From Bacteroidia bacterium (GTDB lineage: Bacteria > Bacteroidota > Bacteroidia > CAIKAF01), in contig JACVCJ010000023.1 in assembly GCA_016742095.1 (NCBI GenBank), positions 1 through 60,724 on the forward strand: 60,724 bases of DNA, read 5' to 3'. The translations under genes and the position numbers were made by a program. Below are positions 2,591-4,770 of the stretch, piece after piece. How positions within the stretch are numbered: position 1 is the stretch's first letter; every line of letters begins with the position of its first letter. Under the pieces are notes generated by a model. The model was not told the DNA's origin. It ran no database searches and saw only the letters and a program-made list of their open reading frames with translations.

Positions 2591-2950
2591 ATGCAGATCG
2601 AAAACAACAAGGCTCAGATGAGGAAGGGGGTTCTGGAACTCTGCATATTGCTTATTCTTTCCCGCAGAGAAGCATATCCTTCCGATATTATTGAAGACCT
2701 GAAGAAAATAGGGCTCGAACTTCCCGAGGGCACAGTATACCCGCTGCTTACCCGGCTCAAGAACGACGGACTCCTGGCCTACCGCTGGGAAGAGAGCACC
2801 AAGGGGCCGCCGCGCAAGTATTATAAGGCCACTGAAGAAGGAGCCGCCTTTGCCCTGGAACTGGACAAGGCCTGGCAGGAGCTCACGCAGAGCATCGAAC
2901 GTTTACGTGAACCGGGACCCACTAATCAAAACGAAACAAACGAACTATGA
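2591..2950 (+). CDS. PadR-family transcriptional regulator
   Basis: A 119-residue winged-helix repressor of the short PadR class. The N-terminal HTH runs from about residue 10 to 80 (VLELCILLILSRREAYPSDI, then ELPEGTVYPLLTRLKNDGLL), followed by the wing KGPPRKYYKATEEG and a C-terminal dimerisation helix. The start is set by the promoter just upstream. Its stop overlaps the start of the PspC-domain gene by 4 bases (ATGA), so the two are cotranscribed. PadR-PspC pairs are common in Bacteroidota, where PadR probably autoregulates the operon in response to envelope or drug stress; that role is inferred. Confidence 0.92.
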   Translation: MQIENNKAQMRKGVLELCILLILSRREAYPSDIIEDLKKIGLELPEGTVYPLLTRLKNDGLLAYRWEESTKGPPRKYYKATEEGAAFALELDKAWQELTQSIERLREPGPTNQNETNEL

Positions 2951-4560
2951 AGACGACCATAAACATCAGCATCGGCGGTTTTGCCTTTACCGTGGAAGAA
3001 GACGCTTACGGCATCCTGAAAGATTACCTCGATGCCGTGGAAAAAGGCTTTGAAAAAGAGAACGGCGGCGACGAGATCCGCAAGGACATCGAGTACCGTA
3101 TCGTGGAAATTTTCCGGGAGCGCCTGCAGGGTAAGGAAGTGCTCGACCTCGGCGATGTGCATTATATGATCTCTATCATGGGCGAACCTTCTATTTATGG
3201 TGGCGGAACGGATCCCAGGGAACAGTACACGGAGAACAGCGCGCATGTGGACAAACGTTTTTACCGCGACCCGGACAGCAAAGTGCTCGGGGGCGTATGT
3301 TCGGGTATCGCCGCCTATTTTAATATCGATCCCGTATGGATCCGGGTGGCCTTCCTCGTGGCCTTTATCGGCTACGGCACCGGCTTCTGGGTATATGTTA
3401 TACTGTGGATAGCCATTCCCGAAGCCAGGACCACGGCCCAGAAACTGGCCATGCGCGGTAAGGCGCCCAACCTGAACAACATCAGCAATGCCATAAAGAG
3501 TGAACTGAACGACAGTAAGAACAACTGGTCTAAGAACAAAGGCGAATTTGCCACGGCCGGCCGCAACTTCATCGGCATACTGGGCGATATCCTGCGCAAA
3601 CTGGTGGATTTTACCCTGAAAGTGACCAAAGTACTGCTGAAGATCATCGCCGTATTTGCCACACTTACCTGTATCGGCTTCCTGGCCATGCTTACCATGG
3701 TGCTGCTGAGCAAGCAGGACATGAACTTTGGCCCGCTCGAGAACTGGCAGCAGGTGGAGACCTATGTATTCCAGTCCGAAAGTTATGCCGAGTGGTTCTA
3801 TGTTTCGCTGGTGCTGCTGTTTGCCATACCGCTGATATACCTGCTGTACCGCAGTGTACTGTACCTGGCCAATAAACGCAGTCACAAGGTGGTGAGCCTG
3901 GTTTCGCTGGTGTTCTGGCTGTTCTCGCTCACAGGCGTATCGTATTTCGGGATGGACCTGCTGATGGAATTCAAACAGCAGGGACAGGTGAGCCAGGGCT
4001 ACAGCTACCCTTCCGACCCGAAACAGACCCTGCACATCGTTACCAACGACCGCGACAGTATTTACGATCATGTACAGAGCGACAGCAGTCTGCTGATCAA
4101 GGACGTACGCCTGGATATTATTTCGGCCCACCAGGATTCGCTCATCCGCATTAAGGTGATCCGAAGCCAGCATGCCCGCACCCGCGTACAGGCACAGGAA
4201 GAGGCCAAACGTATTTCGTACAGTCATCATTTTCAGCCCGGACTGCTGTTCATACCCTCTTACTTTACCCTGGCGCCGCGCCAGAAATACCGTGAACAGG
4301 AAGTAGAAGTGGAAGTACATCTGCCCGACGGACAGGCCATTATACTCGATAAAAGCCTGTCCCAGATCCTGAGCGATGTGGAAAGCGACGGACTGGTGCT
4401 GCAGGAAGACCTGTACGGTTATGTATTACGAATGACTCCCAAAGGCCTGAGCTGCGAAAACTGCCCGGCCGAACTTTTTGAAAAAGCGAAGGAACGATCC
4501 GAATCTGAAAAAGCGCAGTTGACGACGGATACCGTTCCCGACTCGACAGGCAGCGAGTAA
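2947..4560 (+). CDS. PspC-domain membrane protein
   Basis: 537 residues. Residues 1-100 are a cytoplasmic part starting MKTTINISIGGFAFTVEEDA, seen in PspC proteins of this phylum. The PspC domain spans about 105-160 (RDPDSKVLGGVCSGIAAYF, then WVYVILWIAIPE), with two hydrophobic hairpin segments. Further membrane helices lie at about 228-254, 283-303 and 313-335. The C-terminal ~200 residues are predicted extracytoplasmic and end in an acidic tail. PspC proteins sit in the inner membrane and take part in envelope-stress responses. It forms an operon with padR through a 4-base overlap, and a terminator follows 35 bases after the stop. Confidence 0.9.
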   Translation: MKTTINISIGGFAFTVEEDAYGILKDYLDAVEKGFEKENGGDEIRKDIEYRIVEIFRERLQGKEVLDLGDVHYMISIMGEPSIYGGGTDPREQYTENSAHVDKRFYRDPDSKVLGGVCSGIAAYFNIDPVWIRVAFLVAFIGYGTGFWVYVILWIAIPEARTTAQKLAMRGKAPNLNNISNAIKSELNDSKNNWSKNKGEFATAGRNFIGILGDILRKLVDFTLKVTKVLLKIIAVFATLTCIGFLAMLTMVLLSKQDMNFGPLENWQQVETYVFQSESYAEWFYVSLVLLFAIPLIYLLYRSVLYLANKRSHKVVSLVSLVFWLFSLTGVSYFGMDLLMEFKQQGQVSQGYSYPSDPKQTLHIVTNDRDSIYDHVQSDSSLLIKDVRLDIISAHQDSLIRIKVIRSQHARTRVQAQEEAKRISYSHHFQPGLLFIPSYFTLAPRQKYREQEVEVEVHLPDGQAIILDKSLSQILSDVESDGLVLQEDLYGYVLRMTPKGLSCENCPAELFEKAKERSESEKAQLTTDTVPDSTGSE

Positions 4561-4594
4561 TCTGCCTGATTCATATACATTCTTAATAGTTCGG

Positions 4595-4627
4595 AGACCG
4601 GTCCTGTAAAGGCCGGTCTTTTGTTTT
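4595..4627 (+). terminator. Terminator of padR-pspC
   Basis: AGACCGG (4595-4601) pairs with CCGGTCT (4613-4619) over an 11-base loop and is followed by TTTGTTTT. Confidence 0.8.
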
Positions 4628-4642
4628 CCGGCAAAATAGGGC

Positions 4643-4682
4643 AAAAAAAACAGGTGCGTGCTGTAAAAGCGATCGCACCTGT
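4643..4682 (-). terminator. Intrinsic terminator of the minus-strand small RNA
   Basis: Read on the minus strand, ACAGGTGCG (4682-4674) pairs perfectly over nine bases with CGCACCTGT (4658-4650), followed by eight T (4650-4643). No protein gene on this strand ends here, so it implies an RNA transcribed from the right. Confidence 0.85.
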
Positions 4683-4735
4683 AACCCTTAACTAACCAAC
4701 CCTATGAAAAAACTATTTAGATGTGCTAAATAGCT
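4643..4735 (-). ncRNA. Predicted trans-acting small RNA of about 93 nt
   Basis: A perfect minus-strand promoter (4770-4740) and a perfect intrinsic terminator (4682-4643) bracket about 93 bases without a useful ORF. The predicted RNA begins with an 8-bp hairpin, CTATTTAG-CACAT-CTAAATAG (4733-4713). A C-poor, unpaired 30-nt linker follows (4712-4683), then the terminator hairpin. The linker is complementary to ACTAACCAACCCTATGAAA, which resembles a translation-start region of Bacteroidota secreted or SusC-type genes, so it could mask start codons. The 5' hairpin followed by six U could also act as an early terminator. No name from RNA family collections can be given. Confidence 0.7.
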
Positions 4736-4739
4736 AAGA

Positions 4740-4770
4740 CAAAGGTAAGGCATATTTCGCTTCTGCCAAA
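4740..4770 (-). promoter_or_regulatory. Promoter of the minus-strand small RNA
   Basis: On the minus strand TTTG (4770-4767), exactly 19 bases, TACCTTTG (4747-4740). The expected transcription start at 4733-4736 coincides with the first base of the 5' hairpin. Confidence 0.8.

Follow-up and report, generated by a model that had tools for sequence, protein, structure and literature searches.

To our knowledge, Bacteroidota possess neither classical sRNA chaperones nor a translation initiation led by Shine-Dalgarno sequences. The closest described counterparts of the RNA considered here are the FopS sRNAs of gut Bacteroides, which prevent the translation of susC mRNAs by binding around their start codons; in Bacteroides thetaiotaomicron, they are bound and counteracted by the RRM-1 protein RbpB, and their genes are intergenic (nine), antisense (four), or derived from a 3' UTR (one) (PMC11697453). 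A predicted sRNA gene in a 60,724-nt stretch of a Bacteroidia genome (the window) encodes an RNA that would act in the manner of FopS without formally belonging to that family. New are the occurrence of RNAs of the FopS kind over a wider range of the class than previously described and their linkage to clpB and dnaK, neither of which is mentioned in the text of the FopS paper (PMC11697453). None of the ~30 FopS loci inspected is located near either gene, and no report of such an RNA at clpB or dnaK was found in the literature.

The promoter, 5' hairpin, C-poor linker, and terminator proposed in a first-pass annotation are all present at the claimed positions (Table 1), and the linker is, as claimed, exactly complementary to ACTAACCAACCCTATGAAA. 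The pattern TTTG-N19-TANNTTTG occurs three times in the window, versus 0.23 times expected. The stem of the 5' hairpin (CTATTTAG/CTAAATAG) comprises 8 bp, and the predicted RNA (~91–100 nt) folds more stably than each of 200 shuffled sequences (z -4.6). The arrangement of hairpin, linker, and terminator is predicted only for a transcription start at ~4733–4734; five extra nucleotides at the 5' end lead to an alternative predicted fold, in which the GGUUGGUU part is sequestered. Because pspC ends in its own terminator (4593–4621), the putative sRNA gene forms a separate, convergent unit. A scan of the window at the Rfam gathering thresholds gave no match, and a BLAST-type search of the host genome yielded only short matches to gene starts.

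Table 1. Predicted sRNA gene and adjacent features in the window.
Feature	Position	Strand	Remarks
-33 promoter element TTTG	4767..4770	-	exact promoter pattern
-7 promoter element TACCTTTG	4740..4747	-	spacer to TTTG exactly 19 nt
Predicted sRNA, ~91 nt	4643..4734	-	inferred start set by promoter and hairpin, end by U-run
5' hairpin CUAUUUAG-cacau-CUAAAUAG	4713..4733	-	specific to host genome
Conserved anti-start core GUUUUUUCAUAGGGUUGGUU	4694..4713	-	conserved among relatives
GGUUAGUUAAG	4687..4697	-	complement of CUUAACUAACC; similar string in G176 copy
Linker	4683-4712	-	30 nt, one C
Intrinsic terminator ACAGGTGCG...CGCACCTGT	4643..4682	-	9-bp stem, 8-U run
Convergent neighbor pspC (PspC domain protein)	2947..4560	+	outside sRNA unit

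The core of the linker is conserved among relatives of the host. A sequence-only model of this core, GUUUUU(U)CAUAG(UA)GGUUGGUU (27 nt, built from six sequences), found strong matches (E < 1e-4), each followed by an intrinsic terminator, in 12 of the 16 family genomes, 6 of which were outside its training set; a 13th contains a divergent copy. Among 395 genomes of the class, the model found nothing comparable beyond the family except one gene start in a genome of another family (G100). Across 11 genomes from three genera, the final 19 nt of the core show 100% identity, whereas the flanks show an intergenus identity of only 28% (40 nt upstream) and 33% (34 nt downstream). Such a pattern would be expected for a site of base pairing or binding within an RNA that is free to change elsewhere. 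The terminator hairpins of the copies differ in sequence, with folds of -20 to -29 kcal/mol, and the 5' hairpin of the window copy is not conserved in the copies of relatives that were compared. The claim of an sRNA gene is therefore supported by a core and a terminator that are kept beyond chance, whereas the expected conservation of both hairpins and linker holds for the linker core and the terminator but not for the 5' hairpin. An affiliation with Chitinophagaceae is unlikely, because the host family is the only family of its order in the genome set compared.

The first match in a relative (G003) comprised the linker alone rather than the whole gene, and was located behind clpB with a different terminator hairpin; a search behind clpB across the family then revealed the element in three genera. 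Same-strand copies occur directly behind clpB in 10 genomes (G001, G002, G003, and G005–G011; the copy of G011 is divergent) and, again on the same strand, 19 nt (G012) and 131 nt (G013) past the stop codon of dnaK, whose protein ends in ...DVDYEEVK at both loci. The latter (L392 in G012:C25 and L205 in G013:C103), with a FopS-like core and a terminator, represent two species of one genus. Further copies in the family are located on G012 C20 and G013 C41 (both with promoters, including TACCTTTG), G011 C23, G001 C6, and G002 C44; the copy on G013 C126 lies 2 nt past a stop codon. The standalone copies have Bacteroidetes-type promoters. Since the copies vary in placement, the RNA family comprises both standalone genes and 3' UTR elements. 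None of the copies in relatives is located beside pspC. The host genome harbors two additional candidates (C46:78184 and C55:28219), and three copies each are present in G013 and in G176, a member of another family with the core GUUUUU(U)CAUAAUAGAUUGGUUA, where two of the copies have a clear TATATTTG box. Two of the copies in G176 are arranged in tandem, ~216 bp apart (L313, C31:218610 and 218826); these and the third (L211, 169940) have a promoter or promoter-like -7 box.

Several related elements were encountered in the same searches. In f17 genomes, AGUUUUUUCAUGGUUGGUU and a terminator are located upstream of topA (~40 nt 5' of the gene at L035, L093, L094, and L023–L025); this element could be an sRNA or a topA attenuator. 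Two related genomes share a subtype of the core (UAGUUUUUUCAUAGUUGUUGGGGA), followed by terminators (L356 in G001:C6 and L210 in G002:C44). In Bacteroidales UBA5536 (L042, directly behind a stop codon) and Alistipes (L033), UUUUUUCAU..GGUUGGUU precedes a strong terminator hairpin; these loci may represent members from Bacteroidales that derive from 3' UTRs. Boxes of the GTTAA type (TGTTAAGTAGTGTTAAG, TGTTAATGAACGTTAAT) recur ~70–80 nt 5' of clpB-linked cores (L096, L102, L177, and others), possibly also upstream of FopS genes, and might be bound by a regulator. A genome-wide search for the pattern and a T-run gave 69 loci, most of which were gene starts, and two strong-looking candidates (L034 and L073) were read as transporter gene starts next to the terminator of a neighboring gene. 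The exact string AACCAACC..ATGAAAAAACT matched mostly true gene starts among the 395 genomes but yielded the topA locus of f17 and the copy in G003.

The antisense of the core reads U-AUG-AAA-AAA, as genes with a signal peptide begin. With simple calls of ORFs and signal peptides, 707 gene starts were evaluated in an 860-kb sample of the host genome: 47 of 57 TATGAAA starts (82%) were signal-peptide-like, compared with 221 of 707 (31%) overall (OR 12.9, p 1e-16); the same was true for 43 of 53 ATGAAAAA starts. Because TATGAAA starts are mostly signal-peptide-like, the anti-start half of the core would provide a class-level address for exported proteins. The motif TTAACT, which is complementary to the UAGUUAAG part of the window copy, is present in 13 of 221 leaders of signal-peptide genes but only in 4 of 486 others. 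The strongest predicted duplexes involve mostly exported proteins or lipoproteins, and gene-start matches to the core across the family likewise concern mostly exported proteins. The number of duplexes with at most -20 kcal/mol (35 vs 23 +/- 9 for tail-shuffled linkers) shows no clear and no significant excess. The best gene-start match in the host genome (L346, G000:C16:5332; without Pfam match) encodes an exported protein (MKKLAGVF..AQYLLTAVSPPPQF) with a paralog at L383 (G000:C38:5963; MKKLATGL..AQYVLTCIAPPPQF); the start regions of both are complementary to the core.

The SusC-type mRNAs envisaged as targets in the first-pass annotation find no counterpart: a TIGR04056 search of the host genome gave no protein above the cut-off, so this target class appears to be absent from the host. 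The full 19-nt leader ACTAACC..CCTATGAAA occurs nowhere in the genome except in the sRNA gene itself. What stands of the proposed anti-initiation sRNA is a linker that represents a conserved anti-start-codon element, in line with the strategy of FopS on susC mRNAs (PMC11697453) and the similarity in Rfam; the full leader as a target and a role as anti-initiation decoy are unsupported.

The other half of the core, GGUUGGUU, is invariant but has no demonstrated target, because AACCAACC leaders are not enriched: CCAACC is present in none of the 221 leaders of signal-peptide genes in the 860-kb sample and shows only a small excess over a reversed control in the 16 genomes (169 vs 108). The partner that keeps this half invariant may be a protein of the RRM type or else a limited number of mRNAs. 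In the former case, the core could be mainly an RNA–protein handle: an RbpB-like RRM protein would bind GGUUGGUU/UUUUUUCAU, and the RNA would titrate the protein or stabilize the 3' ends of mRNAs, without any pairing at start codons. This seems rather unlikely, even though the lack of enriched targets agrees with it, the 19 nt that are invariant between genera exceed the typical length of a seed, two RRM_1 proteins are encoded in the host genome, several copies belong to the 3' UTR of clpB or dnaK, and FopS sRNAs are bound by RbpB in B. thetaiotaomicron (PMC11697453). An exact antisense of the AUG-AAA-AAA start would be an odd coincidence for a protein-binding site, and FopS, which has the same anti-start element, has been shown to repress by pairing.

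A FopS-like RNA that pairs with only one or a few mRNAs, such as those of the exported-protein genes on C16 and C38 in the host or, in relatives, those of porP/sprF-like genes, and not with exported-protein mRNAs broadly, is quite improbable. The best gene-start matches do recur in related genes, namely, the C16/C38 paralogs and QDPQFTQFF-type genes in G004, G009, and G010, and the excess of duplexes over shuffled linkers is small, but no single orthologous target was found that is conserved across all core-carrying genomes. A chance arrangement of promoter, hairpin, and terminator around a sequence that happens to be antisense to a gene start would profit from the abundance of MKKL-type starts (pattern searches showed the same string at many gene starts) but is hardly credible in view of the diverged flanks, the core beside terminators in 12/16 relatives, the linkage to clpB/dnaK, and the non-coding opposite strand at related copies; a functional plus strand, with a short leader peptide (MKKLFRCAK*) or a remnant gene start and no minus-strand RNA, is extremely improbable because the frame that follows the AUG is not conserved in relatives after MKK, promoter and poly-U run exist only on the minus strand, and no SusC-type gene is located downstream.

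The window gene is probably a standalone member of a family of trans-acting sRNAs that is spread across Bacteroidia and works like FopS, with a core that pairs at start regions and selects exported-protein mRNAs. RNA polymerase would start ~7 nt past TACCTTTG and stop at the terminator. The exposed core UUUUUUCAUAG(..)GGUUGGUU would then pair with mRNA starts of the type (AACC)..(C)UAUGAAAAAA and, by analogy to FopS, block initiation; because U-AUG-AAA-AAA combines the start codon with the lysine-rich n-region of a signal peptide, it would select exported-protein mRNAs as a class. The GGUUAGUUAAG part is predicted to add pairing with UUAACUAA leaders, and the sRNA may be modulated by RbpB-type RRM proteins. 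The clpB- and dnaK-linked copies in sister genera suggest that RNAs of this family might be produced during protein-folding stress and reduce the burden of exported proteins. Since no chaperone gene adjoins the window copy, its link to stress is by family only. A class-wide system in Bacteroidia that recognizes exported-protein mRNAs generically via U-AUG-AAA-AAA, and that is wired behind clpB/dnaK in one lineage so that folding stress lowers the synthesis of exported proteins, is conceivable but doubtful.

If the model is correct, overexpression of the sRNA should cause a selective decrease of exported proteins starting with UAUGAAAA. A single short RNA could address many messages for exported proteins through the class-level signal (UAUGAAAAAA), and if invariant anti-start RNAs occur in further families of the class, the masking of start codons would be an old and general strategy of the phylum. 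The linkage to clpB and dnaK would provide a directly testable circuit from stress to secretome.

The similarity to FopS extends to several properties. Both groups mix standalone genes and 3' UTR elements (PMC11697453) and contain an anti-start string GU(G)UUUUUCAU(g/A)G, with a seed antisense to a start-codon region; here, this seed (GUUUUUUCAUAG, antisense to CUAUGAAAAAAC) is invariant among relatives. In both, the terminator is the only conserved structure, paralogs occur in multiple copies (in the host, the window copy and two candidates), RRM_1 proteins are encoded in the genome, and the promoter is the canonical housekeeping promoter of Bacteroidetes (TTTG-N19-TACCTTTG in this case). By contrast, the second half of the core reads GGUUGGUU, where FopS has UAGAUUUAAGGUUAA, and the seed, which is located at the very 5' end in FopS, is internal in the window RNA, following a 21-nt hairpin; in some relatives (G001 and G176), it lies close behind the -7 box. 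FopS sRNAs have been described only in Bacteroidaceae, and the host genome lacks a true SusC. FopS (RF04319) is the best-matching Rfam family of the window RNA, with a score of 21.2 bits (cut-off 56), which is exceeded by a copy in G013 (29.1 bits) and by the C46 locus of the host (36.9 bits, E 0.001 for the genome; best in the host genome); only 12 genomes, from five other families of the class, score above the cut-off. Because score, seed position, and the SusC target class do not fit, the window RNA was not filed as FopS.

Other known RNAs are more distant. GibS of B. thetaiotaomicron shares the FopS seed R1 and binds translation initiation regions (PMC11697453) but differs by an additional seed (R2) and a separate promoter motif (PM2); the comparison made here covers its published properties. 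The same applies to Rfp18 of Flavobacterium psychrophilum, another Bacteroidetes sRNA with exported proteases and an adhesin among its predicted targets, which is strongly structured and pairs via its third stem-loop (PMC9723704). The start of the BTnc231 model (RF04180; ACGUUUUUUUCAUAG) matches the 5' part of a G013 copy, but the score (17.4 bits) is far below the cut-off (80.4), and the RNA is longer and differently structured. In enterobacteria, the synthesis of exported proteins is lowered by RybB, MicA, and CpxQ, which are envelope-stress or 3' UTR-derived sRNAs; they belong to another phylum, depend on Hfq, and are unrelated in sequence, and represent a functional analogy to the RNA family described here.
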